DNA from: a virus
Virus record (IMG/VR): IMGVR_UViG_3300026367_000108
Coordinates: 1 to 44,046 of that record
Direction: 5' to 3' (one strand)
DNA length: 44,046 nucleotides
The notes below the pieces were generated by a model. That model saw only the letters and a list, made by a program, of their open reading frames with translations. It had not been told where the DNA came from and searched no databases. Both the position numbers and the translations under genes were made by a program. Of this stretch, positions 25,185 through 42,170 are shown piece after piece (position 1 is the first letter of the stretch; every line of letters begins with the position of its first letter).

Positions 25185-25352
25185 CTACTGCTCCAATTTT
25201 ATTAGTTTTTTTAGCTTATTCAGTCCACCGATTGGCTTAAACTGGCTTAATTGCTCGTCTGTTAAATCGGTGCCGTCTTCCACTGCCTGGGCTGTGTACA
25301 TGCGATCTTCATCGTCTGTCGGCTGCTTAATTTTTTGTTTGTTGGTTTTCAT
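25185..25352 (-). CDS. BrnA-like antitoxin/immunity protein (55 aa, short form)
   Basis: 55 residues. The part DDEDRMYTAQAVEDGTDLTD, then EQLSQFKPIGGL, resembles the N-terminal part of BrnA antitoxins (acidic start, then D-L-T-D-E-x-L-x-x-x-x-P). The DNA-binding C-terminal part of full BrnA is absent. The start overlaps the end of the MuF-BrnT gene by 26 bases, so toxin domain and partner are made together. This order (toxin-bearing gene, then small partner) fits an immunity role. Supported by neighbourhood and modest resemblance. Confidence 0.6.
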   Translation of the reverse strand: MKTNKQKIKQPTDDEDRMYTAQAVEDGTDLTDEQLSQFKPIGGLNKLKKLIKLEQ

Positions 25353-27465
25353 AAGTCTTAATCTCGCGTTTGTTTGCTTTCCTTAGTGATATTGCTCGCA
25401 TGCCTTTGCCTGTTGCTATAAATACAAATACATGGAGCCTGCCGGCTATGACGCCCTGAACGATAAACCTCTGTTCGTTGTAATCGCTCCTGGTGTCCTC
25501 GGTAATGATGGCTCTTGCCCAGTCTATTTCAGACACTTTAGTAAAGTCTAGTCCTCGTTCAGTGATGTTCTTCTGGTTTTTCACTGGGTCGTATTCTAAT
25601 TCCATACCGTTGATGTTATCCACAGCAGTTCGCCCTTTTATGTCTGGCGTCCCTATAGCTTTCAGTAATGGTTTAGTGTTCTTAGATATGGCTTTGGTTG
25701 CCTGCTTGCCTTTTTTCGCCTGTGCGGCTGCCTCTGGGTCTGTTTTGGCTATCTTTGCCAGTTTTTCTTGCTCCAGTTCGGCTAACTTAGCGAATTGGCT
25801 TTTGCCTGAGTTGTTCACGAACCCTGGATCCACTCCTATTGGTATGGTGTGAGCTTTGCCGGTTGTTGGGTTCGTCCATAAATCATACTTTGGCTTTGGC
25901 GGCTTTGAAATTGTGAGCCCTTGTGCGGCTATTTCGTCTGCATCCATTTGTATTACACCACATCTACAGTTGTGTACTATTAAACCCTGTGCTACTACTA
26001 TGCTTTCACTACTTTGGAAATCATAAACGTGCCCGCTAAAATCAAAATTGAAAACCTTGATAACTGGGTCGAGTTGTACTTGTCTGGTGTAAGTATTAAG
26101 CAAATAGCTGAACAAATCGGAATTGATAGAACCACGGTCACCAGAGAATTTCGCGATGCTGGTGTCAATATCAGAACCAGATCCCAAGCCGAAGTTATTA
26201 AGTGGCAATCCATCAAAAAGGATCGTGCTGCAGTCGTTAGGCAGTGCGGTGCTGCGTGGGCTGCTGCTGCCTCTAGGAACGATGACATTGAACTCGCCAT
26301 CTTGAGACTCAATCGAGAAGAAAGGCTTTCCTCCAGGGCTATTGCTCTTAGGCTTAATGTTAGTCGCGGGTGCGTCACTACCACCTTGAAAAGTAATGGT
26401 GTCAAATGCGATGATTGGGCAGAAAGAAGATCTAATGGCGTCCAGCGCGGCGGTTTGGTTTCCGGTCAAATCAGTCCTTTCGAGACCCCCTTCGTTGAGA
26501 TATTGATCTCCAATGGGTTTCGGGTTGTCCATCAGTTTGCTATTGCCGGCTTTAATGTTGATATCGCTTTGCCTGAATGCAATATCATCATTGAGGTTGA
26601 GCGTGGTGGTTTGAACCATAGCAAAAGCCTCAGACTTGAGCGTTTGGAACAAATTTTCAGCGCTGGTTTTAAGCTCTTGGTTGTTAGTGACAATACCAAG
26701 GATGGGTTCGACTATGTTGCTATATGCGAGAAGATTATCTCCTACGCAAATATTACCAGCAACAATCCATCCTTTCCTGGTCAGTATCGGGTGATTAGGA
26801 GTAACGGAGAGTTGGCGACCACTCGCAGTAAGTATTTTAATGGCTTTACCGTTATGCCTGCGCTTGATTCCTCCTTGGATATCTCCTGAAATTTCGGTTT
26901 CAGGCAAAAAGCAATTCCAGCCGTTCGGTGGGTAGTGAGAATCCCAGAAAGGATCGTCAACGGGTAAAACCAGGCCGTCATTGTGGCGATGTTCTGCTCG
27001 CGTGGCTCCGTCGTCTACGGCGTCGTACATCAGGTAGGGCATGTCTGCCTTGCTTTCCTCGATGGCTTGCCATTGTCCTGCGGCATAGCTGCTCTGTAGG
27101 TTTGTTCGGAAAATAGTTTCTAGCCTGGACGCGCTGCCCAGTTGCACCTTGGTGATGTGTCCGGTCGCGGCGTCGATTACGTCCTTTTTGCCCCACCATC
27201 CTTTCTTCTGCAGTATTGGGATCATGTTCTTCTTGAAGTCGGCCAGGGTGCCACCGGCCTCGATGGCTTTGTCCAGCTCATGGCGAATGGCGAGCAATAA
27301 ATCGTCGTCCATCATTTTGGCAACTGTAAAAGCTGCGTCATGTTGCTTGCCGATCATTTCATGCCAGTTATAAGACTGCTTTAAGCCTTTACCGGAAAAG
27401 TAGGCGATCGCTTGTTCCGGTGGCAGGTCAAATGTGGCGGCCGCTTCAAAATAATTAATGATCAT
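25327..27465 (-). CDS. MuF-type minor head protein with intein and C-terminal BrnT toxin domain
   Basis: 712 residues before splicing. MuF/SPP1-gp7-like domain at about 1-184 and 500-510, with the signature HYPPNGWN joined to CRCGV. An intein occupies residues 185-499; splicing would leave a 397-residue protein. After an Ala/Lys-rich linker, residues about 615-712 match the BrnT RNase toxin: LEYDPVKNQKNITERGLDF, NEQRFIVQGVIAGRLHVF and RAISLRKANKREIKTYE. MuF proteins enter the head with the portal; toxin-tailed MuF proteins are a known polymorphic toxin class of temperate phages. The start overlaps the portal stop (TAATG). Confidence 0.9.
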   Translation of the reverse strand: MIINYFEAAATFDLPPEQAIAYFSGKGLKQSYNWHEMIGKQHDAAFTVAKMMDDDLLLAIRHELDKAIEAGGTLADFKKNMIPILQKKGWWGKKDVIDAATGHITKVQLGSASRLETIFRTNLQSSYAAGQWQAIEESKADMPYLMYDAVDDGATRAEHRHNDGLVLPVDDPFWDSHYPPNGWNCFLPETEISGDIQGGIKRRHNGKAIKILTASGRQLSVTPNHPILTRKGWIVAGNICVGDNLLAYSNIVEPILGIVTNNQELKTSAENLFQTLKSEAFAMVQTTTLNLNDDIAFRQSDINIKAGNSKLMDNPKPIGDQYLNEGGLERTDLTGNQTAALDAIRSSFCPIIAFDTITFQGGSDAPATNIKPKSNSPGGKPFFSIESQDGEFNVIVPRGSSSPRSTALPNDCSTILFDGLPLNNFGLGSGSDIDTSIAKFSGDRGSINSDLFSYLLNTYTRQVQLDPVIKVFNFDFSGHVYDFQSSESIVVAQGLIVHNCRCGVIQMDADEIAAQGLTISKPPKPKYDLWTNPTTGKAHTIPIGVDPGFVNNSGKSQFAKLAELEQEKLAKIAKTDPEAAAQAKKGKQATKAISKNTKPLLKAIGTPDIKGRTAVDNINGMELEYDPVKNQKNITERGLDFTKVSEIDWARAIITEDTRSDYNEQRFIVQGVIAGRLHVFVFIATGKGMRAISLRKANKREIKTYENQQTKN
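25969..26913 (-). mobile_element. Intein (315 aa) in the MuF gene
   Basis: Residues 185-499 of the MuF protein. Block A is CFLPETEI with the N-terminal Cys nucleophile. Block B is LSVTPNHPILTRKGW with the TxxH motif, followed by VGDNLL. Block F is GHVYDFQS. Block G is GLIVHN with the terminal Asn, and Cys is the next extein residue. All splicing residues are present. About 170-220 residues between the two Hint halves have no in-frame endonuclease motif and are Gly/Ser/Asp/Asn-rich; their antisense strand encodes the endonuclease. Confidence 0.92.
26029..26889 (+). CDS. Putative homing endonuclease encoded antisense within the intein
   Basis: About 286 residues from GTG at 26029 (TTG at 26014 also possible). 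First HTH: GVSIKQIAEQIGIDRTTVTR. Second HTH: RLSSRAIALRLNVSRGCVTT. Nuclease core: ETPFVEILISNGFRVVHQF, then FNVDIALPECNIIIEVERGG and ERLEQIFSAGFKLLVVSD, a Vsr/DUF559-like PD-(D/E)XK fold with likely catalytic Asp and Glu. HTH units plus a Vsr-like core is the build of the EDxHD/Vsr-type phage homing endonucleases. It lies wholly inside the intein reading frame on the other strand, in exact codon register. GGAAA lies 8 bases before the GTG. No in-frame ATG is available for a start. Confidence 0.8.
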   Translation: MPAKIKIENLDNWVELYLSGVSIKQIAEQIGIDRTTVTREFRDAGVNIRTRSQAEVIKWQSIKKDRAAVVRQCGAAWAAAASRNDDIELAILRLNREERLSSRAIALRLNVSRGCVTTTLKSNGVKCDDWAERRSNGVQRGGLVSGQISPFETPFVEILISNGFRVVHQFAIAGFNVDIALPECNIIIEVERGGLNHSKSLRLERLEQIFSAGFKLLVVSDNTKDGFDYVAICEKIISYANITSNNPSFPGQYRVIRSNGELATTRSKYFNGFTVMPALDSSLDIS

Positions 27466-28958
27466 TACTTGCTACCTTTGAACATTCCCATTAATCGGCT
27501 GACCAGGGTTGCGTTGCGGATTGTCTCTGCGGCCTGTTCGCTGGCTGGCTCTGCCATTAGCTCGTTTAAGTGCTTTTTGAACGTGTCCACATCGTCGGTT
27601 TCTTCCATGAACGATAGGAGCTGCTCGATCCGCTTGCCGTACAAGTCCTTGTATTTGGTTGCCATGTACTCTGCGGCGTCGACAAGCGCTTGCTGGTCTT
27701 GTCTGTGCGCGATCCGCTTTTGGGTTAGGGCGGTGACTTCTGCAAAGTCGGCATTCATTTCTGGTAGCCCGTTGGCGGTCGGTGGGAGTACGGCCTCTTT
27801 CTTGCGCCATCCTTCGCCATAGGTTTCTTTGATGTATTCCTCGGTTGGCTCATAACCTAATTTTGTGATTTCGGCATCGCGCTTGGCCACTTCGAGTAAG
27901 TTTATTTCTGGCTCTGTTCTGCGCCATACTTTTGGTGGTTTTGCGTTGGGAAAGTTCCAGGCGATTAGGCGCTTGACCACCTGGTCGTTGAACGAGGCAC
28001 ATACCAAGTCGGCATCGCTTTTGATTAGTTCCTCTTTGACGCCTTGATGTACTTCGGCTTGGCTTCTGCTGCTGCCGTTGTCTGTGGTCATGGTTTGGGA
28101 TAGCACTATTTTGGCGATCGCTGCGTCCATCGCGCCTTTTAGCCCTTCGTAATCAACCGAACCGCTGCGGGTGGCTTCTAGTAGTTCGATTACAAAGTCT
28201 TCCGGTATTACGACGCCGCTGTCTGCTTGTATTGCGTCGATTATCTCTAATGCTTGGCCTCGCTTTTCTTCGTCCTGGTATTGAGCGTTGTTTAGCTTGG
28301 CCACGGCGGTTGGCATGCTGAATTTTTCTAGGTGAATCATCCAGAATTTAATGCCGTTACGCTTAAAAAATACAGGCCAGTAGAGCGAATGCGCTAAACC
28401 TTCGCCGTATGGGTTGTCGTCGTGGCTTGCGCCCATGGAGACTACCCAGAAGTTTTCGGGAGGCATTATTTTGTTTTTAAAGTTATCGGTTTTTAAATAC
28501 AGATTGCCTTCGACGTCAAAGCCAAACCTTGCGCGATCTCTTACTTTGATTTTGTCGATTACGACGCGCCCTTCTGCGATGGTGTATAGGGTTTCTGCCA
28601 CTGACCAGCCGTAGTGGATGGCATAAAGCATTTTATCGGTGATGTTGTCGAACCCGATCCGGTCTAGTTCGCCTCTGAGCCATTCTGCGGCCTCTTCGTC
28701 TTCTGGGCTTTCTGTTGCTGCGTCAACGTACCATTCAGCGTTTGTGATGGCTGTGCGGCGTTGTTGAAATGTGCTTTTTACCTGGTCGTCGCGTAGTAGG
28801 TCGGTATAAACACGAAGCCGGCCACCTTGTTGTTGTAATACTGGATCGGGGTTTTCGAGCATGCCGTCAATAAATGCCCTGGTTAGCATTATTCCGTGAT
28901 CCGCTCGGGACATTTCTGTCAGCTTTAGTTTTGCCGGTGCGTTTTTCTTGTCTGCCAT
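27465..28958 (-). CDS. Portal protein (DUF935, Mu gp29-like)
   Basis: 497 residues. DUF935 landmarks: RLRVYTDLLRDDQVKSTFQQ, RRTAITNAEWYVDA, YAIHYGWSVAETLYTI, FWMIHLEKFSMPTAVAK and MTTDNGSSRSQAEVHQGV. It forms the dodecameric portal at the head vertex through which terminase packages DNA. It lies between large terminase and MuF as in Mu-type heads. Family length is typical. Confidence 0.93.
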   Translation of the reverse strand: MADKKNAPAKLKLTEMSRADHGIMLTRAFIDGMLENPDPVLQQQGGRLRVYTDLLRDDQVKSTFQQRRTAITNAEWYVDAATESPEDEEAAEWLRGELDRIGFDNITDKMLYAIHYGWSVAETLYTIAEGRVVIDKIKVRDRARFGFDVEGNLYLKTDNFKNKIMPPENFWVVSMGASHDDNPYGEGLAHSLYWPVFFKRNGIKFWMIHLEKFSMPTAVAKLNNAQYQDEEKRGQALEIIDAIQADSGVVIPEDFVIELLEATRSGSVDYEGLKGAMDAAIAKIVLSQTMTTDNGSSRSQAEVHQGVKEELIKSDADLVCASFNDQVVKRLIAWNFPNAKPPKVWRRTEPEINLLEVAKRDAEITKLGYEPTEEYIKETYGEGWRKKEAVLPPTANGLPEMNADFAEVTALTQKRIAHRQDQQALVDAAEYMATKYKDLYGKRIEQLLSFMEETDDVDTFKKHLNELMAEPASEQAAETIRNATLVSRLMGMFKGSK

Positions 28959-28961
28959 GGT

Positions 28962-30620
28962 TTAAAATCCTCTATATTTAGTGTTGTTTCGGCGCACTGG
29001 TTTGCCTCGGCCGTTTATTTCTGCTTCTAACGTTCCGGCGTTGCGCTTGCCGGTTGACGCCATCCAAATGTCTGTAGATTTCCCGACTACCCAGTCTATG
29101 TACTGGCTCACGCTGTCCACTTGGTCGTCGTGTGTCGATAGTGGGAATCCGAAGAACTCACTTTCAAAATCCATTAGCCATGGCGCTATTTGCGGTAAAT
29201 AAACCTGCTGCGCTTCGACGGTTGAGCTTGACCTGACGGCTCTTTCTAGCTTGTTGCCTTTGGGCTCTATCGCCACCACCGGCATAAAAATAGGTTTTGG
29301 ATAGCCTTCTAGTCTTACGCCGGTACGGCACTCTTGTATTAAGCTCTGGCCGCTTGATTTGTCCTCAATGAGTACGGTATCTGGCCGCCAGTTCATGTAT
29401 AAATTTGCCAGGATGCGTTTTAACTCTGGGTACTCGACGCGATCCCGCCATACGCTTAACAAATAATGGGCTCGCTCCGTTTGCCCCCAGATGGTTAACA
29501 CACTTGGGTCGTTTATCTGTTCTGGTTTATAAGCTGTGTCAAGGCTAAACGTTACCCGTAAAAATTCCGCTGGCGGTGTCTGGTACCGCTGAACCCATGC
29601 GCGTTTAAAGATTGAACCCTCGGCCGGCTTCGGTTGCTGCTGGTATAGCGATCCCCAGTTTCTGACGCCTTGGACGCGCTTTTCTCTTACCCAGTGTTCC
29701 TCGCTAAACCATTCCGTCCATAACCACTCGCCTATTTCACGACCTAGCGGATCGTCTTCTCGTTCGCATTGCGCGGGTAGGCATACGACATACCATGGTT
29801 CACCGTCCTTGCTCATTACCCAGCCTGATTCGCCGTTCCAGTTGTCGGGTAATATCCGGCCGCTTAAGTCGTCTTCGTGCCATCGTGTTTGCACTATGGT
29901 GATGAACGCGCCAGGTTTTAAACGTGTTCGTAAGTCGTTTAGGTAGGCGTCCCAGGTCTTTTCGCGGATCTTTGGGCTGTCTGCGTCTTCGCGGCCTTTG
30001 ATGGGGTCGTCAATGACGAGGCCGTCTGCCCTGTTGCCGGTGATGCCTGATAGGATCCCGCCGCACATGTAGGTGGATCCGTTGGTCAATGCCCAGTCGT
30101 CTATTGCCCTGTTATCTGATCGCAGTCGGGAATCAAACAATTGATTGTATTGGCCGCTGCTGGTTATGCTTCGGCATTTGCGGCCAAACTTACGGGCTAG
30201 GCTGGCACCGTAGCTGGTGCTGATGATGTTTTTGTTTGGGTTTTTGCCCATGTACCAAGTTGGGAAGGTCACGCTCACATAGGTCGATTTGGCGCTGCCT
30301 GGTGGCATCATTACCAAGAGTCGGTTGTATGTGTAGCCGGTTTCGGGATCTATTTCTTTGCGCTCGACCTTTTCCAGTATGCTGTTTAATAAGCTGTGAT
30401 GCTCTGCCGGCTCTACTGTGTCGGGATAAAAAGCGCTTGTTATTTCGTGAAGCTTACACTTTGGATCGTCGCATCTGTCGCCGTCAGGGCATGTGTCCTC
30501 TTTCAGTGGTGCGCCTGGGATCTCGATGTACCTGCAGTAATCATCTAAGCTAATTGTCGCTTGATATCTGCGATCGGCTTCGAGTAATTCTAGGTACTCG
30601 AGTTCCTCGGCTGCTGTCAT
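28962..30620 (-). CDS. Terminase large subunit
   Basis: 552 residues. ATPase domain with Walker A MMPPGSAKST (about 104-113), Walker B GLVIDDP (about 200-206) and coupling motif QTRWHEDDLSGR. The RNase H-like nuclease domain has its first Asp in FSLDTAYKPEQ and a later Asp in THDDQVDS. An N-terminal Cys cluster (CPDGDRCDDPKC, about 44-55) is an added feature that may bind zinc. It packages DNA into heads and cuts it. It overlaps the small subunit gene by 4 bases. Confidence 0.95.
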   Translation of the reverse strand: MTAAEELEYLELLEADRRYQATISLDDYCRYIEIPGAPLKEDTCPDGDRCDDPKCKLHEITSAFYPDTVEPAEHHSLLNSILEKVERKEIDPETGYTYNRLLVMMPPGSAKSTYVSVTFPTWYMGKNPNKNIISTSYGASLARKFGRKCRSITSSGQYNQLFDSRLRSDNRAIDDWALTNGSTYMCGGILSGITGNRADGLVIDDPIKGREDADSPKIREKTWDAYLNDLRTRLKPGAFITIVQTRWHEDDLSGRILPDNWNGESGWVMSKDGEPWYVVCLPAQCEREDDPLGREIGEWLWTEWFSEEHWVREKRVQGVRNWGSLYQQQPKPAEGSIFKRAWVQRYQTPPAEFLRVTFSLDTAYKPEQINDPSVLTIWGQTERAHYLLSVWRDRVEYPELKRILANLYMNWRPDTVLIEDKSSGQSLIQECRTGVRLEGYPKPIFMPVVAIEPKGNKLERAVRSSSTVEAQQVYLPQIAPWLMDFESEFFGFPLSTHDDQVDSVSQYIDWVVGKSTDIWMASTGKRNAGTLEAEINGRGKPVRRNNTKYRGF

Positions 30621-31069
30621 TGTTTACGCTTGGCTTCTAACTCTTTAATCCTGGCTTGCCGTTCTTCCGGTGTTAAGTCATGAAGCGGGTTGTATTGCGC
30701 TTTCCCGTCCGGCGTTGTCGGGGCTATCTTCTGAGGCGCGTCTAATCCCATCAATCGGTTGATGCTGTCCAGTACCCTGGTTGCTTGCCCGATGGCCGCC
30801 ACTTCTCCTTTGCCTACTTGTGTCTGGAGCTTTAAGAATAGGTTTTCGTATCGCTCGAGCTGAATGGCGTGATAGTTTTTTGCCGCCTCGACGTTCAATT
30901 CTTTCAGTTCTTCGGATGCTTTGGTTACATGCCGATGAACCGCTGATACTTGGATCCCTACTTTGTTGGCTATCGCTCTAAACGTGAACCCAAGCATGCG
31001 AAGCTCCAGGCATTTAAGCCTGGTTTCTTTCGCGGTAAGTCGTGACCTGTGTGTCTCTGGTAATGCCAT
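30617..31069 (-). CDS. Putative terminase small subunit (HTH protein)
   Basis: 150 residues. An N-terminal helix-turn-helix (CLELRMLGFTFRAIANKVGI, then VSAVHRHVTKASEE) is followed by a helical oligomerisation region and a charged C-terminal tail (TPEERQARIKELEAKRKQ). Size, HTH and location directly before the large subunit fit the DNA-recognition subunit of terminase. No direct family motif beyond this. Confidence 0.8.
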   Translation of the reverse strand: MALPETHRSRLTAKETRLKCLELRMLGFTFRAIANKVGIQVSAVHRHVTKASEELKELNVEAAKNYHAIQLERYENLFLKLQTQVGKGEVAAIGQATRVLDSINRLMGLDAPQKIAPTTPDGKAQYNPLHDLTPEERQARIKELEAKRKQ

Positions 31070-31072
31070 AGC

Positions 31073-32419
31073 TTATCCTTGAACGCATGAGTTGAATGTC
31101 GCACCGGTGTCTTGCAGGATCGCGTCCTGTCCACTGAACTCTTGGTATCTTCTGACAATGACGTCAGCGTAAATAGGATCCAGTTCCATCACTCGAGCTT
31201 TGCGGCCTATCTTTTCACACGCGACCATTGTCGAACCACTGCCTGCGCAAAAGTCTATGACCACATCGCCTCGCCTGGTGCTGTTCTTCAATTGCCCGAC
31301 GATCAGCCTGATAGGTTTCATGGTCGGGTGCTCGCCGTTCTTGACGGGCTTGTCTTCGCGTATGATGGTTGTTGCCAGTGTGTTTCGTAGTTCGCGTATG
31401 TAGTTTGCCATCTGGTTTTTATCCATGGCTTTTACATCTGGCTGGTCGTCTATGACGGTTGTCTTGTTGAACTCGCCGTACCATTTGTGCGCTGCGCCTG
31501 GTTTCCATCCGTATAAAATGGGCTCATGGACCCACTGGTGGTCTTGTCGCCCAAGGACTAAGCCGTTTTTAACCCAGATAAGGCATTGCTTCACGCCGAG
31601 GCCGGCTTCCCTGGCTGCGCCTCTAAAGTTCTCGCCTTCGCTGTCTGCGTGGGCAATATAAAACGGGGCTCCTTGTTTAAGCACTGTGCAGCAACTGGTG
31701 AATAAGTCCGTCAGAAACAACCTAAAGTTGTCATTGCTCATGCTGTCGTTCTTGATCTTCTTGCCGTCCGTTCCTTCGTAGTCGACGTTGTATGGCGGGT
31801 CAATCCACAAGCAATCGGCCTGTTCGCCGGCCATCAGTGTTTCTACGTGCTCGATGTTGCAACTGTCGCCGCACATGAGGCGGTGATTGCCCAGGATCCA
31901 AACATCGCCTGGTTGCGTCACGGCGTTTTGTTGGGTGCTTGGCGCTTCGTCGTCGTCAATCTGACCTTCTACCTCGACTTCTTCAATGTCAGGGTTATCG
32001 CTCATTAGGCTTTCAAGGAATGCGTTTAGCTCGTCGTCTGCTACGATGTCGATGCTTTCCAGTAGGTCGTCTAGCATGGCCTGGTCTTGCTCTGCCATTG
32101 CGCCTAATGGGTCGATGCTGGCGAGGGCGATTTTCTCTTGTTGTTCGGTCAGTTCGACGTACTTAACCGGCACCTTTTCGCCTTTTTCTTTGGCCAGGTC
32201 AACGCGCAGATGTCCGTCGATAATGTGGCCTGTTGTGCGGTTGACGATGACGTCCTGGATCCAGCCAATCTCGTTTAAAACGCCATTTAATGCCTGGCGT
32301 TGGTGCTTCGGGTGGTTTCTAAAGTTGAAGGGGTTAGCCATCAGTGTTTTGGGATCTTCAAATCCCGAGCTGACGATCCTGTTTTCCCATAGGCTTTCTT
32401 TTTCTACTGCGTTAGTCAT
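31073..32419 (-). CDS. ParB-domain DNA methyltransferase
   Basis: 448 residues from MTNAVEKESLWENRIVSSGF at 32419, where AGGA precedes the ATG; an earlier ATG has no such site. Residues about 20-105 are a ParB/Srx-like domain (DGHLRVDLAKEKGEKVPVKY). The methyltransferase part has catalytic motif IV DPPYNVDY (about 208-214) before the AdoMet motif I FCAGSGST (about 390-397), the order of beta-class adenine or N4-cytosine enzymes. It likely modifies phage DNA against host restriction. Its place just ahead of terminase is common. Confidence 0.9.
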   Translation of the reverse strand: MTNAVEKESLWENRIVSSGFEDPKTLMANPFNFRNHPKHQRQALNGVLNEIGWIQDVIVNRTTGHIIDGHLRVDLAKEKGEKVPVKYVELTEQQEKIALASIDPLGAMAEQDQAMLDDLLESIDIVADDELNAFLESLMSDNPDIEEVEVEGQIDDDEAPSTQQNAVTQPGDVWILGNHRLMCGDSCNIEHVETLMAGEQADCLWIDPPYNVDYEGTDGKKIKNDSMSNDNFRLFLTDLFTSCCTVLKQGAPFYIAHADSEGENFRGAAREAGLGVKQCLIWVKNGLVLGRQDHQWVHEPILYGWKPGAAHKWYGEFNKTTVIDDQPDVKAMDKNQMANYIRELRNTLATTIIREDKPVKNGEHPTMKPIRLIVGQLKNSTRRGDVVIDFCAGSGSTMVACEKIGRKARVMELDPIYADVIVRRYQEFSGQDAILQDTGATFNSCVQG

Positions 32420-32484
32420 TTGCGATCCTGGTTTTGTTTTTGTTGTTGGTACCACTGCTGGCGCTCGTCGTAGTAGTGACTCAT
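32416..32484 (-). CDS. Possible 22-aa peptide between DUF1353 and methyltransferase genes
   Basis: MSHYYDERQQWYQQQKQNQD plus two residues. Start and stop both overlap the neighbours as ATGA, suggesting translational coupling, but it has no ribosome site and is very short. It may only be a coupling device that carries ribosomes to the methyltransferase start. Confidence 0.3.
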   Translation of the reverse strand: MSHYYDERQQWYQQQKQNQDRK

Positions 32485-32837
32485 AGGCCGTTAAACTTGG
32501 CGTAAATCCGCACTCCAAAATAAAGTATTTGGCTGTTTATTTTGTTTACGCCGGTGTCGAGCAGGGCTTCTTTGAATAGGCGGTCTGCTTCTTTTCGCGT
32601 GTAGCTTGGAGTTGCTAGGGCTGCGTCATGGATGATTGCTGCATCTTTAATCTTGCCGCTGTTTGAATATGCCCAGCGCAAATACCAAGGGACGGTGGCT
32701 AGGTCGGTTTTTGTGCCTGTTCTTATATGCAGTACTCGCCCTAGCTCTGAGCTTTCGAATGTTTGGTTCTCGGCAACTCTAAAGCTGCCGGTACCTGGGA
32801 TGCTAACGAGGCTGATTGCGCCTTTTAGTTTTTTCAT
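32481..32837 (-). CDS. DUF1353-like phage protein
   Basis: 118 residues from MKKLKGAISLVSIPGTGSFR at 32837; the frame extends upstream but only into the overlapping holin-like gene. The family pattern is clear: TDLATVPWYLRWAYSNSGKI, DAAIIHDAAL and EADRLFKEALLDTGV. DUF1353 proteins are small phage proteins of unknown role often found near lysis or packaging genes. Confidence 0.8.
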   Translation of the reverse strand: MKKLKGAISLVSIPGTGSFRVAENQTFESSELGRVLHIRTGTKTDLATVPWYLRWAYSNSGKIKDAAIIHDAALATPSYTRKEADRLFKEALLDTGVNKINSQILYFGVRIYAKFNGL

Positions 32838-33229
32838 TTCTTTTTTATCCCTGGTATGGGCAATGCGCCCGAGTTGACGTTGGGTACCAAAAAGTAAAAG
32901 GTGACGACGAGCGAGAAAGGCCATACCCATACTTCGGATAGTAATTCTAGGATCCACTTCGCGTCGTCTACCCATCCGACTAGTTGTGCTACTGTGCCGA
33001 TTATTGATAGCAAGGCCACCATGCCGGTTACAATCCAAGCCACACCTCGCCGGCTCTTTGCGCTGGGGCTTAGTGCTGTCATTAGCTCTAGGTACCACTT
33101 ATCTCTGCGCTCGTTGGCTGCGGCCTTTTCTTCTTCTGTGTAGACGAGTGCGTCACCGGTTCTGATTAGGGCGTTAGTGCCTTTCTCGATCAGGTCGTCG
33201 CTACTGAATAGGGATTTAAAGAAACTCAT
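32834..33229 (-). CDS. Holin-like membrane protein
   Basis: 131 residues from MSFFKSLFSSDDLIEKGTNA (GGAG upstream). Two membrane segments near the C-terminal half (GVAWIVTGMVALLSIIGTVA and VWPFSLVVTFYFLV), with a soluble charged N-terminal part. This build is common in phage holins of the 3TM or HI1416-like types. Position next to endolysin and a second holin-like gene supports a lysis role, perhaps as antiholin or second holin. Confidence 0.65.
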   Translation of the reverse strand: MSFFKSLFSSDDLIEKGTNALIRTGDALVYTEEEKAAANERRDKWYLELMTALSPSAKSRRGVAWIVTGMVALLSIIGTVAQLVGWVDDAKWILELLSEVWVWPFSLVVTFYFLVPNVNSGALPIPGIKKK

Positions 33230-33317
33230 TTTCTGCTTCTCCACGGTTCCAATAATAACTATTCGAATCGTAAAAATCCGCCGCGACTGCTAGTGCTATT
33301 TTGCTGTGTTTAAACAT
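33216..33317 (-). CDS. Possible 33-aa protein in the lysis cassette
   Basis: MFKHSKIALAVAADFYDSNS followed by 13 residues. CGGAG lies 8 bases before the ATG, which is better than chance, and it overlaps the endolysin end and the holin start. No family. It may be a small lysis-associated peptide or a coupling frame. Confidence 0.45.
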   Translation of the reverse strand: MFKHSKIALAVAADFYDSNSYYWNRGEAENEFL

Positions 33318-33805
33318 GCTATTGCTCCGTTTGGTAGGTGCCGTTGTGCGCTCTCGATGTAATGCTCGGTTGTGCCTTTTCCGGCTTTTGTGTTGTAAAA
33401 GGTTTTCCAGTACTGCGCTCGATGACATAGCGCGGTCGGTATTATTTCGGGCCGTAACCAGTATTTAAGCCTGGTAAATATCAGGGCTAAAAGTGGATCT
33501 TCTGCCAGATCTTCAAACTTTGCGGTGTAGACGTTGCGGCCTAGTTCGTGCGCGACCTTTTGGGCGATATCAAATCGGGTTCTGGTTTTGACGTCTTCAA
33601 AGCCTATGCGGTCGAATTGCGTTAATCCGTATCCGGCACCGTTTGGCGTTGGGTCTTTGAATTGTCCGCATTGGGTTTCTGCTGCTGCGGTTTCGACTAG
33701 CAGCTCCATGGCGGTGTAGTTTGTGCCGTGTCCTATGGTGTCGCATACACGGTCTGCTAGTTGGCATAGGTGATTTTTACTGGTTATTCCGTAATGAAAT
33801 GCCAT
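33296..33805 (-). CDS. Endolysin (lysozyme/transglycosylase-like)
   Basis: 169 residues. The catalytic region reads VETAAAETQCGQFKDPTPNG, then AGYGLTQFDRIGFEDV: a Glu in an ETxxAETQxG context and a GYGLTQF strand as in lysozyme-fold transglycosylases. No signal peptide, so it needs a holin for export. It sits between two holin-type genes. It cleaves peptidoglycan glycan strands at the end of infection; exact chemistry (hydrolase or lytic transglycosylase) is not resolved. Confidence 0.8.
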   Translation of the reverse strand: MAFHYGITSKNHLCQLADRVCDTIGHGTNYTAMELLVETAAAETQCGQFKDPTPNGAGYGLTQFDRIGFEDVKTRTRFDIAQKVAHELGRNVYTAKFEDLAEDPLLALIFTRLKYWLRPEIIPTALCHRAQYWKTFYNTKAGKGTTEHYIESAQRHLPNGAIACLNTAK

Positions 33806-33806
33806 A

Positions 33807-34097
33807 TTAGGATCTTACTGCCTTGCTAGCGCTGATTAACCATTCAAGACTTCGGGTGGTGCCCATACCTGAAAGTAATCCTATTAACAACGTTTGCCAA
33901 AATCCGAGGCTCTGAATAACGCCGAACGCGTATATTGCTGTTCCGAACATGATCGCCAGGATTAGCTCTCCACAAAATTTGCGTAAGTTAAACGGCTCGT
34001 TGTTCACTAGGGTTCTAGCGACTAGTCCTGCAATCATTGCAATGACTACAGCGATTAATTCTCTTAAAAATGGGGTTTCTAATATTTTATCGGGCAT
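33807..34097 (-). CDS. Holin
   Basis: 96 residues with three probable membrane segments (LIAVVIAMIAGLVARTL, LILAIMFGTAIYAFGVI, WQTLLIGLLSGMGTT) and a short basic C terminus (SASKAVRS). Size and topology fit a class I holin that opens the inner membrane for the endolysin, whose gene follows one base later. Confidence 0.8.
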   Translation of the reverse strand: MPDKILETPFLRELIAVVIAMIAGLVARTLVNNEPFNLRKFCGELILAIMFGTAIYAFGVIQSLGFWQTLLIGLLSGMGTTRSLEWLISASKAVRS

Positions 34098-34453
34098 TAT
34101 TTTTTACTCAGTATCTTTCTGATGTTGCGGGTTGAGACTGAGAATTTTGCCGCTAATTCGTGGATAGTTTTACCCGTAGAATTTCCATCAACTATCTGAA
34201 TGTTGCGGTATTGGGTTAATAATTGGCGCGGTACCCAAATGTCACCACAGCCAAAATGGCGCACCAGCTTGATAGCTGCATCCACTCCGATTGCATCCAC
34301 GATGGCTTTTGTTGGTGCTTTGGCGGGAATGTATAAATACCCGACAGCAAATGCGCGTTCTAGGTTTAGCGTGGCCTCAATGCCTATCGTTTCTATTAAC
34401 TCCTGTTCCCATACGCTGTTTGTTGTTAGTTTTTGTATTGCAGCTTGGTTCAT
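34097..34453 (-). CDS. Mor-family transcription activator
   Basis: 118 residues. The Mor/C signature of Mu is clear: LVRHFGCGDIWVPRQL, RNIQIVDGNSTGKTIHELA and the HTH AAKFSVSTRNIRKILSK at the C terminus. Mu Mor and C activate middle and late promoters as dimers. Here the gene directly precedes the lysis genes, so it is likely the late-gene activator, with the palindromic promoter at 20,078-20,106 a candidate target. Its stop overlaps the holin start. Confidence 0.85.
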   Translation of the reverse strand: MNQAAIQKLTTNSVWEQELIETIGIEATLNLERAFAVGYLYIPAKAPTKAIVDAIGVDAAIKLVRHFGCGDIWVPRQLLTQYRNIQIVDGNSTGKTIHELAAKFSVSTRNIRKILSKK

Positions 34454-34465
34454 TGGTTTTTATTC

Positions 34466-34891
34466 CTATGCGGGGGTGAATTCTTCAAATTTCCAGCCAC
34501 CACCTTGTTTCTCGGTGACTTTCTGGACGGCGATAAAACGGAAGTGATGGTATTTGTCTGCGGCGACTTTTATTTTTACCCTGGCGTCGTCTTCCCAGAA
34601 TCCTTTCACCTCGAAAACAATAAATTCTGTGGGCGTGGCGACGAAAAAGTCCGGCGTGTAAAACGTGGTCTTGGCTAGGCGTAGTTTTATTGATTCAAAC
34701 TCGCTCGATAAAAATTCACCTGAGAAGATGCGCGGTTGTATGTAGCTTTGCAGGAATAGGGTTTCTGTTTTGTTCATTGCTCCTGGCGTGTGTTTGGGGC
34801 GCGGTCGAACTTTTACCCTGGCGCTAGTGGTTGCCTTTGGGGTTGTTGCTCTGCGCCTGATGCCGGCCAGTTGGCTTTCGCTCATTCTCAT
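34466..34891 (-). CDS. DUF1064-like nuclease-fold phage protein
   Basis: 141 residues. A basic disordered start (about 1-38) is followed by a domain with TPDFFVATPTEFIVFEVKGF, the PD-(D/E)XK arrangement (D in TPDF, E-x-K in FEVKG), then a helix with VKIKVAADKYHHFRFIAV. DUF1064-type proteins lie in early phage operons and may act as Holliday-junction or repair nucleases in DNA processing. Alternative start MNKTETLFLQS exists at residue 39. Confidence 0.75.
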   Translation of the reverse strand: MRMSESQLAGIRRRATTPKATTSARVKVRPRPKHTPGAMNKTETLFLQSYIQPRIFSGEFLSSEFESIKLRLAKTTFYTPDFFVATPTEFIVFEVKGFWEDDARVKIKVAADKYHHFRFIAVQKVTEKQGGGWKFEEFTPA

Positions 34892-35247
34892 GCTCGTTTT
34901 CTCTCTGTGCTAAGTGGGCGCGACCATAGGCCGTCTGCTGATCGTGGAGTTCCGTCGTTCTGCGCCTTGGTGGGTTTCATGTTCTGCAGTTTGTTTAGTC
35001 TGTCTTCCTGGCTCATTGGCTTAACTTCCTGCCCTCTGGTGTCGAGCTTCATGTTCAGGTACCTAAAAAAGCGCTGACTCATATCCTCGATTTTTACCTG
35101 GTCGCCTAACTTCTGGATCCTGGCTAGCACTTCGCCATGCTTTGCCTTTCCGTTGTTGACTTGGTTTGCCCATAGCGCTGCTTTTAAATCGCGCTGTAGC
35201 TTTCTCTGATCGCTTATTGGTTTTATTGCTATGTTGTGTTGGGTCAT
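34888..35247 (-). CDS. Hypothetical phage protein (119 aa)
   Basis: 119 residues, helical and charged, ending in a basic tail (LWSRPLSTERKRA). No family recognised. Overlaps the nuclease-like gene by 4 bases, so both are translated together. Located in the early DNA-metabolism group between replication genes and the Mor-like activator, where nin-region proteins lie in lambdoid phages. Confidence 0.75.
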   Translation of the reverse strand: MTQHNIAIKPISDQRKLQRDLKAALWANQVNNGKAKHGEVLARIQKLGDQVKIEDMSQRFFRYLNMKLDTRGQEVKPMSQEDRLNKLQNMKPTKAQNDGTPRSADGLWSRPLSTERKRA

Positions 35248-35306
35248 TGCCTTTTGCCTTTTCTGTGTTGTTTCAGGGCGCTTTATTCGCTCCCCTCGTT
35301 CACTGG

Positions 35307-35684
35307 TTACTGTTCACACGCCGCCAGTCCGATTGCAGTGCATCGCCACACTTGGCTTTTTCGGTTGGCGATGGTGCATCTTCGGATCTCTACTAATTCG
35401 ATTAGTCCGTTCTTGGCCAGCTCTGGTAATCGTCTGCCCATCATGACTTTCGTTTGGTTTGTTAGGGCTTGCATGTACTCAAAATCGTAACTGTGCCGGC
35501 CTTTTCTTTTTGCCATGTGGTCATTGGTGTTCTGGATGGCTATTTCTGCTCTTGTTCCGGCTCCGTACAACGCGACCATGCGTAGTGTTTGGAGTTGTTG
35601 GTATATTTGCGTTCCTTCGGCTTCGACTTCGGCTGCAGCTTCGTGACTGCTTATTGGGTCGATACGTCTTGCCAGTTGACTCAT
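35307..35684 (-). CDS. Hypothetical phage protein (125 aa), winged-helix-like
   Basis: 125 residues. Helical N terminus, then LPELAKNGLIELVEIRRCTI and KSQVWRCTAIG, which looks like the recognition helix and wing of a winged-helix DNA-binding fold. Comparable small nin-region proteins with a QTRRILxxLLxxGxV pattern exist in many phages. Function unknown. Confidence 0.7.
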   Translation of the reverse strand: MSQLARRIDPISSHEAAAEVEAEGTQIYQQLQTLRMVALYGAGTRAEIAIQNTNDHMAKRKGRHSYDFEYMQALTNQTKVMMGRRLPELAKNGLIELVEIRRCTIANRKSQVWRCTAIGLAACEQ

Positions 35685-35694
35685 AAAATCGCCT

Positions 35695-36294
35695 TTATTT
35701 TTGGTTTAATGTTTTAAAACGTTGTTTAGCTTCTGCTAGAAGTTGGGCTTCAATTTTTTTACGTGCTGCGTTTTCTTTTGCTTTGTTCGCCGCGACTTCT
35801 GCTTGTTTTTTGTTTGGCGCGAGTAGCATTGTTCTTATGTTGTTTATTTTTGGCGCTCCGACCTTCTCTCGCTGGGCTCTTAGTTCGTCGGTGAGAAGCA
35901 TTTCCGCTGCCGGCTTAAATTCGAGCGCTGCCACTGGCTTTGGTCTGTTGGCTTTGCAAAATCGGAGCGTTGTTGCAATGTCCGGCCACTTTAGATCGTC
36001 GTCCTTTTCCATTTTTGTTTTTAAGATTTCCATTCCCCTGTCGATCTCTGCCCTGGTTAGTTCACCTATTTTGCTGCTCCACTCTTGCTGGCTTTCAAGC
36101 AGCATTTGGTCGCTTTTAAACTGGGCTCTGTATTTGGCTCCGTATATCGTTTCTAGGCGCTTATAAAAGTAAACCGTCGCCTTAGCGTTGTAAGCGTTGA
36201 CTGAGTTGGTAAACGTTCTCTGTTGGGTCGCTGAATAGGTCGTTTGCCCCATTGTTGCTGTTGTTCTGCTTAGTAGTTCCGTTGTGCTTTGCAT
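35695..36294 (-). CDS. Replication protein P-like (helicase loader)
   Basis: 199 residues. The segment LTRAEIDRGMEILKTKMEKD then LKWPDIATTLRFCKANRPKP matches the replication protein P family, where R-G-x-x-x-L...W-P-x-x-x-x-F-x-x-x-C is conserved. P-type proteins bring the host DnaB helicase to the origin. The gene overlaps the O-like gene by 113 bases if the first ATG is used; a later ATG at 36252 would shorten the overlap. Confidence 0.75.
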   Translation of the reverse strand: MQSTTELLSRTTATMGQTTYSATQQRTFTNSVNAYNAKATVYFYKRLETIYGAKYRAQFKSDQMLLESQQEWSSKIGELTRAEIDRGMEILKTKMEKDDDLKWPDIATTLRFCKANRPKPVAALEFKPAAEMLLTDELRAQREKVGAPKINNIRTMLLAPNKKQAEVAANKAKENAARKKIEAQLLAEAKQRFKTLNQK

Positions 36295-37072
36295 GTTGTT
36301 GGTCTCGTTTGTTGTTGCGGTTCATCCAGCCTTTCGCCGTGGCTTCCCATGATTTCATCTTGACTCTGCCTACCATCCAGCCGTTGGCTGTGTAGTGGTT
36401 TATAAATGCTTCGGCGTCGTCGGGTGTTGGGATCTTGAATTCAGGTTTTTTGTCATTGCGGTACGTTGCCATGAGTTCTAAAACTTGTTGTTCAGTGGGA
36501 GGGGTGAATCGCGGGGTTGGTGCTTTTTTGGGGTTGGTTAAATTTTGTTCGACTTCGCCTCTATAGAGATTATCAATAGCGGTTGTATCGGATATGGGTT
36601 GCAGTGGGGTGTTTTCCCTTGGTTGCTGTGCTGGTTGCTGTTGCGTCGCTAGCCCTTTGTTTATATGGGTTTCGCTTGGTTGCTGTGCTGGTTGCTGTCC
36701 TTGGTTGCTGTCTGGTTGCTGTGGAATTGGGCAAATAAAAGATTTTTTGACGTCGTTTGTTGCCAATTCACAACGCCAAGAGGGCGCTAGTCCAGCGGTG
36801 ATGTTTCCTTTGTTTACCTTGGTTATGAGGCCTGATTTCTCTAGGTGCGCGATAATGGTTCTTATCCGTTGTCTAGATGGTGAGGTGGGCTTTTCTTTCG
36901 ATCGTGGGTCGGGTCTATACTCAAGCTCTGCAATCATTCTTGCTTCGCTTAAAAAAACGATACCATCCTGGTAATTCATAAACCTTCGGAAACACATCAC
37001 ATAAAGCGCTTTTGCTTCGGCGTGTAATCCTGGATCTGAAAGCACCATGTATTCGGTGGCGTTTAAACTCAT
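36182..37072 (-). CDS. Replication initiator O-like protein
   Basis: 296 residues. N-terminal winged-helix (AKALYVMCFRRFMNYQDGIV, SRQRIRTIIAHLEKSGLIT), a Gln/Pro-rich linker (about 115-155) encoded by GGTTGCTGT repeats, and a C-terminal DnaT/O-like segment (AEAFINHYTANGWMVGRVKM, then SWEATAKGWMNRN). It binds the origin and recruits the P-like loader. The repeats inside the gene may be the origin, as in lambda. Confidence 0.8.
   Translation of the reverse strand: MSLNATEYMVLSDPGLHAEAKALYVMCFRRFMNYQDGIVFLSEARMIAELEYRPDPRSKEKPTSPSRQRIRTIIAHLEKSGLITKVNKGNITAGLAPSWRCELATNDVKKSFICPIPQQPDSNQGQQPAQQPSETHINKGLATQQQPAQQPRENTPLQPISDTTAIDNLYRGEVEQNLTNPKKAPTPRFTPPTEQQVLELMATYRNDKKPEFKIPTPDDAEAFINHYTANGWMVGRVKMKSWEATAKGWMNRNNKRDQQHAKHNGTTKQNNSNNGANDLFSDPTENVYQLSQRLQR
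36618..36724. repeat. Iteron-like repeats, candidate replication origin
   Basis: Six copies of GGTTGCTGT (36621, 36633, 36678, 36690, 36703, 36714), mostly 11-13 bp apart, in the middle of the O-like gene. Lambda-type origins are iteron arrays inside the initiator gene. The repeats also encode a QQP-rich linker, so a purely coding origin cannot be ruled out. Confidence 0.5.
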
Positions 37073-37368
37073 TCTGGCGCTCGTAGAAATTTGAGGCCAA
37101 CGTCTGCAAACTCGGTTAATGACTCGTACATTGATCGCTTAATTGTTATTGAGTCGTCCGTGATCTCTAAAATCGTTAGGCCACATGCGTCGAGAAGTGT
37201 GCAAAATTCCTCTGTAGTGACTTTGGTTTCGCCCGTTTTAAGTCTGCTTATAAAGCTTGGATCGCGACCTATTGCCTCGCCGGCTAATTTTGTGCCTATT
37301 CCACAAATACCTTGCATAAGTAAGGCGTTCATTTTTGCGGCGCTTTTGCTTATTTTTCCATCGTTCAT
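37069..37368 (-). CDS. CII-like transcription regulator
   Basis: 99 residues. The HTH region reads IGTKLAGEAIGRDPSFISRL then KTGETKVTTEEFCTLLDACG, which matches lambda CII (LGTEKTAEAVGVDKSQISRW and the following helix). It is the first leftward gene after the operator region and precedes O and P, the same place as cII in lambda. No separate cro gene was found, so this protein may also serve as the early regulator opposing CI. Confidence 0.75.
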   Translation of the reverse strand: MNDGKISKSAAKMNALLMQGICGIGTKLAGEAIGRDPSFISRLKTGETKVTTEEFCTLLDACGLTILEITDDSITIKRSMYESLTEFADVGLKFLRAPE

Positions 37369-37427
37369 GTTGGTAATATTCCGTTTTTTGTTGGTTGGGT
37401 TCGTATCGCTGGCGGTTTTCGCCTACC

Positions 37428-37443
37428 GTTCAGCTTTCCGAAC
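37428..37443. promoter_or_regulatory. Operator GTTC-N8-GAAC in the immunity region
   Basis: GTTCAGCTTTCCGAAC, perfect four-base arms, upstream of the leftward CII/O/P operon. Confidence 0.65.
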
Positions 37444-37470
37444 TTTAAATGTTTTGTTGCCGGATCTCAA

Positions 37471-37486
37471 GTTCATGTTTGTGAAT
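37471..37486. promoter_or_regulatory. Operator-like site upstream of the repressor gene
   Basis: GTTCATGTTTGTGAAT, one mismatch in the right arm. It fills the spacer of a weak TCAAGT-N17-TAATTG promoter facing the repressor gene, the same geometry as at the candidate small-RNA promoter. This suggests autoregulation. Confidence 0.6.
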
Positions 37487-37512
37487 CACTAATTGTTTAA
37501 GCTGGAGGTTAT

Positions 37513-38232
37513 ATGAAAGACGAAAATATTAAGGAATGTATTGAAATGCCCATAAAGCAAAATTTAAGCAAAGTCAGGGAAGAGTCAGCGGCGCGTCTTA
37601 ACCGCAGGGCGGCTGAGTTGAACATTAAGCAGGTCGATGTGGTTCGCTATTTGTCTTCTTCTAAATCCACGGTTAATGGTTGGTTTGCCGGCAAGGCACA
37701 GCCGAGAGGTAATGATCTATTAAAATTATGTCGTATGCTCAAATGCTCTGTTGATTGGTATGTGACGGGCTCTGGCTCTGTCGCTCCTACCACTGAACTG
37801 CTGGCCTTTGCGGTTTTTCCTGGCACTTGGGAGGCCGATCTTGACTCTGGGGCTCAGTTTTATCGTGTGCCTGCTCTGATGCCTGATGGAACGCTGGATC
37901 GTGATGGTGCAATGCCTATTCACAGATCGTCGTTTGTTGAGTTTAAATCCATTGCTTTGGCTGCCTGGTTTTGGTCAACAGGCGGTAGTGCTCGGCCGCT
38001 GGTGTCTGAGGGTGATATGGTTCTGGTCGACACTTCTGAGGATAAATCCATGGTGTCAGGCGGCGTGTACGCCTTTAAATATGCGGGTGGATTTAATATT
38101 CATAAAACATTTGCCAATGTTGACGGCTCCCTTGTTCTTGAGGACTCGACAAGGCCTGGCGGCAGTTTGACGGTTAAAGCGTCAGACGTAAAAGTGATAG
38201 GGCGTGTTTTGCACCGTTCTGGTTCACTGTAA
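37513..38232 (+). CDS. CI-type phage repressor (HTH plus S24 peptidase-like domain)
   Basis: 239 residues with GGAGG upstream. HTH at about residues 35-75 (LNIKQVDVVRYLSSSKSTVN, GWFAGKAQPRGNDLLKLCRM). C-terminal S24/LexA-like domain with Ser in GGSARPLVSEGDMVLVD (Met after Ser replaced by Ala) and Lys in FNIHKTF. It should hold lytic promoters shut through the GTTC-N8-GAAC sites. Oddity: no Ala-Gly or Cys-Gly dipeptide occurs in the linker, so RecA-stimulated self-cleavage is uncertain. Confidence 0.88.
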   Translation: MKDENIKECIEMPIKQNLSKVREESAARLNRRAAELNIKQVDVVRYLSSSKSTVNGWFAGKAQPRGNDLLKLCRMLKCSVDWYVTGSGSVAPTTELLAFAVFPGTWEADLDSGAQFYRVPALMPDGTLDRDGAMPIHRSSFVEFKSIALAAWFWSTGGSARPLVSEGDMVLVDTSEDKSMVSGGVYAFKYAGGFNIHKTFANVDGSLVLEDSTRPGGSLTVKASDVKVIGRVLHRSGSL

Positions 38233-38299
38233 ATATCGCGTATAGATTTGATATATTGATACGTGTATAGTCGCTCCTTTTTTTCACCAAGGAGCTTTT

Positions 38300-38470
38300 A
38301 TGCCGCTGTTGTTTTGCGTCGCTGTTGTCGAGTTACTTGGGGATGTGCAGGACTATAAGTTTACTGCCCAGGTTCCCATTCATGCTGTTGACGATACCCA
38401 TTTATCTGAACAATTAGACTGCCTCGGTCGTCGTTATAATATTTTAAGTATTTCAAAAAATCCCGCTTAA
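38300..38470 (+). CDS. Small protein downstream of the repressor (56 aa)
   Basis: 56 residues: MPLLFCVAVVELLGDVQDYK, then a charged domain ending SISKNPA. AAGGAG lies 5 bases before the ATG, a strong site. It follows the repressor in the same direction and a terminator stands 9 bases after its stop, so it is probably expressed in the lysogen. A role in immunity or exclusion is possible but not shown. Confidence 0.7.
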   Translation: MPLLFCVAVVELLGDVQDYKFTAQVPIHAVDDTHLSEQLDCLGRRYNILSISKNPA

Positions 38471-38478
38471 ACCGTCTT

Positions 38479-38502
38479 AAACCGCCTTTCGTGCGGTTTT
38501 TC
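38479..38502 (+). terminator. Hairpin terminator of the repressor transcript
   Basis: AAACCGC, 7-base loop, GCGGTTT followed by T-rich sequence. Confidence 0.85.
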
Positions 38503-38513
38503 TTAATTTAAAG

Positions 38514-38564
38514 GTTCGCTTTCTCGTACTTATGACTTGCATTAAGTTCACTTTGTTGTAATCT
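38514..38564 (+). promoter_or_regulatory. Early rightward promoter with two operators
   Basis: TTGCAT (38537-38542), 16-base spacer, TAATCT (38559-38564). Operator GTTCACTTTGTTGTAA (38546-38561) lies between the boxes and GTTCGCTTTCTCGTAC (38514-38529) just upstream. It should drive the recE/recT operon and be silenced by CI. Confidence 0.65.
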
Positions 38565-38621
38565 CTGCTCCGTAAACCGGCGAAACGTTGCGAAAACATA
38601 CGCAATTTGGGCGCTGAAACG

Positions 38622-38654
38622 AAAAAAACCCGCTAGGGCGAACTAGCGGGTTTT
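38622..38654. terminator. Strong hairpin in the leader of the early right operon
   Basis: AACCCGCTAG, 6-base loop, CTAGCGGGTT with T or A runs on both sides. It stands between the early promoter and the first gene, so it is either an attenuator overcome by antitermination or a block to leftward transcripts. A second small hairpin (TCAGGC/GCCTGA, 38665-38679) precedes the start at 38700. Confidence 0.8.
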
Positions 38655-38699
38655 CCAACAAACGTCAGGCAATGCCTGAACCAACGAGGTAATACTAGC

Positions 38700-38936
38700 A
38701 TGAAAAATCCATTGCTGAATAGTGTGAATTCTAAAGTTGAACAAATTTGTTTTGCTGTCGCTGCGGCTAAAAAAGCCGGCTTAAGTGCCAGCGTTGAAAT
38801 AGCCGGTCAAAATCTCATCTGTAACTATGACGGCTTTAATCGTGTTATCGGTCTTAATTTAGATACGGCTCCCGATCGCCTTAACTCCCTTTTAAACGAC
38901 ATTTACGCCATTACGCCTTTAAGCGTTGCGGTTTAA
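38700..38936 (+). CDS. Small hypothetical early protein (78 aa)
   Basis: 78 residues, helical first half (SKVEQICFAVAAAKKAGLSA) and strand-rich centre (ASVEIAGQNLICNYDGF). First gene of the early right operon, with GAGG upstream. No family recognised. Confidence 0.7.
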   Translation: MKNPLLNSVNSKVEQICFAVAAAKKAGLSASVEIAGQNLICNYDGFNRVIGLNLDTAPDRLNSLLNDIYAITPLSVAV

Positions 38937-38945
38937 GGATCCCTT

Positions 38946-41116: not shown

Positions 41117-41117
41117 A

Positions 41118-41360
41118 ATGCCTAATTTACCCATCACTGACCTGGTGCTGCACTTCGCCTTGGCTTGGCATTATCACCTTGCCAATGGCGGGAAGTCTCG
41201 CCTTGATGGTTTTGCTCGCTCTTGGTTGCGTCGTGTGCGTGGCCATGGGTGGAGTGTCCAAGCCGACAAAGCGATCGGCTCTATTATCGGCCAGCGTAAT
41301 CCTGGCGCGGCGTTGTTGGCCGGCCTTGCTGAGTACGATAAACAATTAGGAATTTATTAA
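41118..41360 (+). CDS. Small basic early protein (80 aa)
   Basis: 80 residues from MPNLPITDLVLHFALAWHYH, starting one base after the recT stop; a longer frame would begin inside recT. Rich in His, Arg and Trp (ARSWLRRVRGHGWSVQADKA). Family not recognised. Next gene begins immediately after its stop. Confidence 0.7.
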   Translation: MPNLPITDLVLHFALAWHYHLANGGKSRLDGFARSWLRRVRGHGWSVQADKAIGSIIGQRNPGAALLAGLAEYDKQLGIY

Positions 41361-42133: not shown

Positions 42134-42170
42134 CCGCCTTTAAATTCAACTAAAACAGGTAAATAAAAAT

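Follow-up and report, generated by a model that had tools for sequence, protein, structure and literature searches.

Canonical large inteins carry a LAGLIDADG or HNH endonuclease nested in frame. The element described here resembles them in its Hint ends, in the position of its putative endonuclease between blocks B and F, in its use of a conserved motif within an essential gene as insertion site, and in the occurrence of empty alleles. It differs in that the predicted endonuclease is a separate protein from the opposite strand, has another nuclease fold and overlaps even blocks B and F, while the in-frame middle is a predicted disordered linker. In 2009, Dassa et al. reportedly described "fractured genes," in which split inteins occur with a freestanding Vsr-like endonuclease gene. 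There, as here, a Vsr-like endonuclease is said to be tied to an intein as a separate gene, but the host gene and intein are split, whereas at our locus both are continuous and the endonuclease gene overlaps them. We know of no antisense endonuclease within an intein, and we found none in the openly licensed literature; the two-strand layout of a mobile intein is apparently widespread and not previously described.

Antisense homing endonuclease genes are known from nuclear rDNA group I introns, such as that of I-DsqI in Didymium S956 (PMC9548176). Like our gene, the I-DsqI gene lies opposite the host-gene strand within a self-splicing element, but it occupies a peripheral loop of the ribozyme, where nothing requires the host strand to be an open reading frame (PMC9548176); here, both strands are protein-coding in register. 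Out-of-frame HNH genes have been reported in phage methylase insertions that have no splicing domain, namely, the ShiLan domain and its relatives (PMC11855218). In these, too, the insertion can be read through in the host frame while a second frame conceals an endonuclease, but the latter is of the HNH type and on the same strand, no splicing domain of an intein or intron is present, and no ribosome-binding site was found (PMC11855218). EDxHD enzymes are a recognized homing family (PMC3943268). Our predicted protein has the catalytic fold of I-Bth0305I/EDxHD and Vsr and likewise joins DNA-binding modules to a small nuclease, although I-Bth0305I is intron-encoded and the catalytic signature here is E...N-x-D...E (DUF559-like). 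Ambigrammatic narnaviruses also carry a long reverse open frame across coding sequence (PMC6884476), the function of which is unknown or disputed (PMC8155312), whereas the reverse frame described here encodes a recognizable protein that is under selection.

An intein in the MuF gene of a temperate phage

The window, i.e., the whole 44,046-nucleotide stretch of viral DNA that was analyzed (IMG/VR virus record IMGVR_UViG_3300026367_000108), belongs to a temperate phage whose head module is Mu-like, since positions 27465-44046 encode a Mu-type portal and a terminase together with a tyrosine integrase, RecT, a PD-(D/E)XK nuclease, and an S24-type repressor. Its MuF head-morphogenesis gene (Table 1) contains an insert with matches to the intein profiles Intein_splicing (Pfam, 2.3e-6) and TIGR01445 (2.7e-5). 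Splicing blocks A, B, F, and G were all recognized (Cys1, TPNHP, HVYDF, the C-terminal HN, and the +1 Cys). The insertion point lies before the Cys (+1) of the MuF motif N|CRC, in the flanks HYPPNGWN|CRC, and the uninterrupted HYPPNGWNCRC of phage StM171 represents the empty version of this site. A first-pass annotation, made from the letters alone, had proposed a 315-codon MuF intein with no in-frame endonuclease. This proposal held, in that no endonuclease domain was detected in the intein's own frame by Pfam, NCBIfam, or PHROG. The structure model of the intein is confident (pLDDT 92-98) at residues 1-60 and about 281-315, whereas most of the middle (residues 119-262) has pLDDT values below 50 and is predicted to be disordered; structure matches of the model were mostly inteins with the Hint fold. 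We conclude that the insert is a Hint intein with predicted splicing activity.

The MuF protein closes with a fused BrnT-like RNase toxin domain (Pfam BrnT, 4.5e-18; 25363-25593, minus strand). A 55-amino-acid ORF just downstream of the MuF gene (25186-25351, minus strand) occupies the expected place of a BrnA antitoxin and had no match to any Pfam family. In a related locus (L051:1168-5028, minus strand), a MuF protein with a like intein has a C-terminal ADP-ribosyltransferase exoenzyme domain (Pfam, 1.4e-12).

Table 1. Features of the intein-bearing MuF gene and of the opposite strand, in window coordinates
Feature	Position	Strand	Basis or remark
MuF head-morphogenesis gene, intein-interrupted	25327..27465	-	712-aa ORF; Pfam Phage_Mu_F 4.6e-20
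Intein, 315 codons, Cys1 to Asn315	25969..26913	-	Intein_splicing, TIGR01445, junctions, Hint fold matches
Intein block B core TPNHP, residues 38-42	26788..26802	-	Overlapped by antisense C-terminal motif RVIRS
GGAAAT, weak Shine-Dalgarno-like site complementary to block F codons	26016..26021	+	
GTG start, complement of block F His295 (CAC)	26029..26031	+	ATG in most relatives
Putative antisense homing endonuclease gene, 286 codons beginning with GTG, then a TGA stop	26029..26889	+	Register, family conservation, selection
HTH 1, residues 14-40	26068..26148	+	HTH_23 1.2e-8
HTH 2, residues 89-120	26293..26388	+	HTH_11 6.1e-6 to 6.4e-6; model helices
PD-(D/E)XK nuclease domain, residues 147-245	26467..26763	+	Profiles, model, fold matches
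Antisense C-terminus, mainly block B shadow	26764..26886	+	Disordered from residue 260 (model)

A second open frame in codon register with the intein

The plus strand over the intein is open for 301 codons, which gives 291 amino acids from a TTG at 26014 or 286 from the GTG at 26029, and the stop of the antisense gene is at 26887-26889. Both strands are coding over 286 of the 315 intein codons (91%), and at this locus, each antisense codon is the exact reverse complement of one sense codon. These results agree with the first-pass annotation, which had claimed an opposite strand open for 286 to 291 codons, more than 90% of the intein coded twice in register, avoidance of TTA, CTA, and TCA throughout, overlap with blocks B and F, and a GTG start that complements the block F His codon; every one of these claims was confirmed. 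The start region of the antisense gene overlaps block F and its C-terminus overlaps block B, with residues about 250-286 largely mirroring block B and predicted to be disordered.

We found no sense stops in the antisense frame, where 19 were expected (P = 2e-12), and no antisense stops in the sense frame, where 21 were expected (P = 9e-14). Twelve other genes of the window were compared, and their longest open run in antisense register is 100 codons, versus 301 at the intein. Because about 20 stops were expected either way and none was found, and because the control runs did not exceed 100 codons, the open antisense frame is not a product of chance. Of the Leu codons in this genome, 59% are TTA or CTA, and of the Ser codons, 24% are TCA; the high use of TTA and CTA makes the stop-free antisense frame more striking.

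The antisense protein is a predicted PD-(D/E)XK nuclease

Two HTH units and a Vsr/DUF559-like core had been proposed for the antisense protein, and both are supported by profile matches. The HTH_23 match spans two stretches, and HTH_11 was matched as well (Table 1). The nuclease core gives a weak match to MTES_1575 in the window protein alone (E = 0.022) and a strong one in the family, in which 41 of 49 members match MTES_1575 (best, 1e-9), 7 match DUF559, and many match HTH families. A family profile compared to solved structures matched 3hrl (9.2e-9), I-Bth0305I (3.7e-6), and, weakly, Vsr. The conserved nuclease residues are E152, N176-x-D178, E189, and R205; in the family alignment, E152 is nearly invariant and D178 and E189 are invariant.

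The AlphaFold2 model of the antisense protein has a mean pLDDT of 82.7, with helices in the HTH regions and a nuclease core of alpha-beta-beta-beta-alpha-beta topology that contains the acidic catalytic residues. Vsr and I-Bth0305I were top-ranked Foldseek matches of the model, and VIA-align Z scores were 11.2 (3hrl), 9.4 (I-Bth0305I), and 9.1 (Vsr). When the EDxHD signature is compared with I-Bth0305I, both Glu residues align, and the family Asp lies opposite an Ala of the solved chain. Profiles and model together identify the antisense protein as a predicted PD-(D/E)XK nuclease of the MTES_1575/DUF559/Vsr/I-Bth0305I type; that it is a homing endonuclease, we infer from homology, position, and mobile distribution. 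In the models, the two strands fold in complementary parts of one DNA, because the antisense core is predicted to fold and its tail over block B to be disordered, while the ends of the intein are predicted to fold and its middle is not.

The layout recurs in related inteins, including those selected by the sense strand

A tblastn search of phages with the antisense protein matched 109 records. The first nine loci inspected, from phages of Pseudomonas, Cronobacter, Gordonia, Mycobacterium, Vibrio, Salmonella, and Klebsiella, were all antisense, in register, and within an intein of a MuF or head gene. A search of viral contigs with the window protein as a single query returned nothing, and an alignment query gave 151 IMG/VR relatives. 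Twelve further loci were found in bacterial genome assemblies, including those of Chloroflexi, Actinobacteria, Rhizobium, and Firmicutes. Across 93 related loci and the window, the in-register sense frame is stop-free in all, and no antisense frame has more than one stop, which we took as the terminal stop inside the match. These clean in-register frames hold at any GC content (38-72%), and other registers nearly always have several stops. Freestanding relatives of the nuclease were sought by tblastn only: nearly all phage matches listed lie in genes annotated as head, minor-capsid, structural, or hypothetical, and plasmids yielded, besides one intein, several short matches to HTH or DUF559. 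In Salmonella phage PK2 (L125:1908-2717, plus strand), the antisense ORF is annotated as a hypothetical protein (XRA40007.1), its nature unrecognized.

An antisense query could by itself bias the collection toward antisense genes. This possibility was countered by an independent search that used only sense-strand patterns (blocks B and F) and found at least 529 related inteins, of which the best 80 were kept and 79, with 68 distinct, were scored for the nuclease by an HMM from which the shadows of blocks B and F had been left out. Among these best 80 of at least 529 inteins, all 68 distinct ones have the antisense nuclease by HMM and 67 have a fully open antisense core, while the same HMM matched none of the 79 sense translations. 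In the remaining intein (L142:2280-3254), the sense frame of the same intein class is intact and the antisense frame has two stops; its antisense gene is apparently a decayed endonuclease gene. From these comparisons, the two-strand layout appears to be a family-wide architecture. The first-pass annotation had named two findings that would overturn it, a lack of profile similarity to HTH or Vsr/DUF559 nucleases and a lack of antisense-frame conservation in related inteins; neither was borne out.

Codon comparisons show selection on both strands

In register, sense position 1 is the wobble position of the antisense codon and sense position 3 is that of the sense codon. Over 16 pairs, some of which share a member, so that the counts are descriptive rather than a formal probability, differences at sense positions 1/2/3 were 294/218/656 in the N-extein, 232/184/356 in the C-extein, 80/49/191 in blocks A-B, 25/18/109 in blocks F-G, and 1088/442/749 in the core. 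In nine closer pairs, we also compared single-change codons that were silent only in the antisense protein to those silent only in the sense protein, for which the neutral ratio is 1:1. The ratio was 234:63 in the core and 10:80 in the splicing blocks. These comparisons show selection acting on the sense protein in the exteins and splicing blocks, and on the antisense protein in the core. Without two functional proteins, it is difficult to account for a protected strand that changes at the core's edge.

Empty alleles and exchange between diverged genes

Among Salmonella-type phages, 386 records matched; 58 of them contain most of the gene with its intein, and in many others the gene is uninterrupted. 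The corresponding count among Pseudomonas phages is 14 of 38. The inteins are clean in-frame insertions of 816 and 807 nucleotides, and the empty alleles are ungapped. The BPS11Q3 gene minus 816 nucleotides is 1044 nucleotides long, which is the length of the MA12 gene, and the two are 94.5% identical without a gap. Phage Fyn8 gives the same picture of an exact intein-free allele for Pseudomonas. Between TU03 and BPS11Q3, the inteins are mostly 90-97% identical, versus 60-72% for most of the N-exteins. Because the intein is so much more alike than the N-extein, the element has moved between diverged genes together with its 3' flank. Empty alleles and an intein more alike than the adjoining N-extein are as expected under homing.

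A proposed mobile intein encoded on two strands

We propose that splicing and homing of one mobile MuF intein are, very probably, encoded on the complementary strands of one DNA segment. By sequence and model, the MuF strand encodes the Hint splicing domain at the two ends of the segment, joined by an unstructured linker free of stops, and the other strand encodes a DNA-binding, HTH-bearing PD-(D/E)XK nuclease in the middle. An antisense transcript would yield the nuclease, which in a mixed infection may cut MuF alleles that lack the intein, at the conserved N|CRC codons. Repair off the intein-bearing copy would then insert the segment, and protein splicing would restore MuF. The observed avoidance of TTA, CTA, and TCA in the nuclease gene would arise because the host gene is translated through it, and the need for a working nuclease may leave the intein middle free to become any linker that is open and soluble. 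Beyond the window, we consider it likely, with good confidence, that a large and old class exists in which splicing protein and endonuclease are set codon against codon in phages of many bacterial phyla, with the start and ribosome-binding site supplied by the reverse complement of block F. Two folded, selected proteins in aligned codons on both strands, in many phage lineages, would open questions of sense-antisense coding to direct counts and mutation. Large inteins annotated as endonuclease-free may carry an endonuclease on the other strand, which changes how mobile inteins are to be recognized.

Would the antisense frame be a mere by-product, with the intein conserved on the sense strand and the other strand only its shadow? 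In-register antisense frames do inherit sense conservation, and blocks B and F do shadow the antisense ends, but in the core it is the antisense protein that is more conserved and sense position 1 that varies most. Moreover, the antisense protein matches DNA-binding and nuclease profiles and is predicted to fold, the sense middle does neither, and the open runs go far beyond chance. Shadow conservation alone was ruled out by the codon-position and codon-class tests, and we find this explanation barely credible. It is also very unlikely that the gene is a relic of an intein that spread earlier and whose endonuclease is now dead in most members. The L142 locus, with its broken antisense frame in an open intein, is what such a history would leave, but the frame is open in all the other distinct inteins of the sense-selected set, and purifying selection on the antisense protein is seen in close pairs, a sign of recent function.

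A real nuclease could also serve something other than the homing of this intein, e.g., as a DNA-binding regulator or a nuclease directed against competitor phages. HTH-nuclease proteins can have other roles, and DUF559/MTES_1575 has non-homing members. However, the gene is located within an intein and its product is similar to I-Bth0305I; presence or absence is polymorphic at a specific site, with exact empty alleles; the inteins are far more alike than the adjoining N-exteins; and a single copy, that of L142, has decayed in an intact intein. A non-homing role is, in our judgment, improbable, and we retain a mobile intein with its homing enzyme on the opposite strand as the preferred reading.

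Translation start of the antisense gene

Opposite the block F His codon, the antisense start is ATG in 61 of 73 loci and GTG in the other 12. The typical sequence upstream of the start is CTGGAGGTTGTAGACATG, and the Shine-Dalgarno site in most members is the complement of the block F "YDL/YNL." Most relatives have GGAGGT, GGAGAT, or CGAGGT at this site; the window, with its GTG start and weaker GGAAAT, is less typical. Codon choice in block F follows the same pattern: the His codon is CAT in 46 of 55 cases (21.5 expected), and CTC, which reads GAG on the opposite strand, encodes the Leu of YDL/YNL in 38 of 51 (12.4 expected). Among antisense codons, TTA, CTA, and TCA number 0 versus 224 expected. 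Where block F has no His (GWVYDV, GPVYDF), an ATG lies 2-4 codons further in (L014, L040, L157, and L175); L036 and L056 have no clear antisense start at the usual place, and L055 perhaps has a GTG. Taken alone, conserved block F has a reverse complement that already comes near GGAGGTNRTANACATG, a bacterial translation start, and this resemblance suggests a possible origin of the two-strand arrangement.

A sigma-70 scan found no convincing antisense promoter. In Klebsiella phage RCIP0054 (L121) and Edwardsiella phage MSW-3 (L122), runs of small plus-strand genes end close to the antisense gene, whose transcription they could provide.
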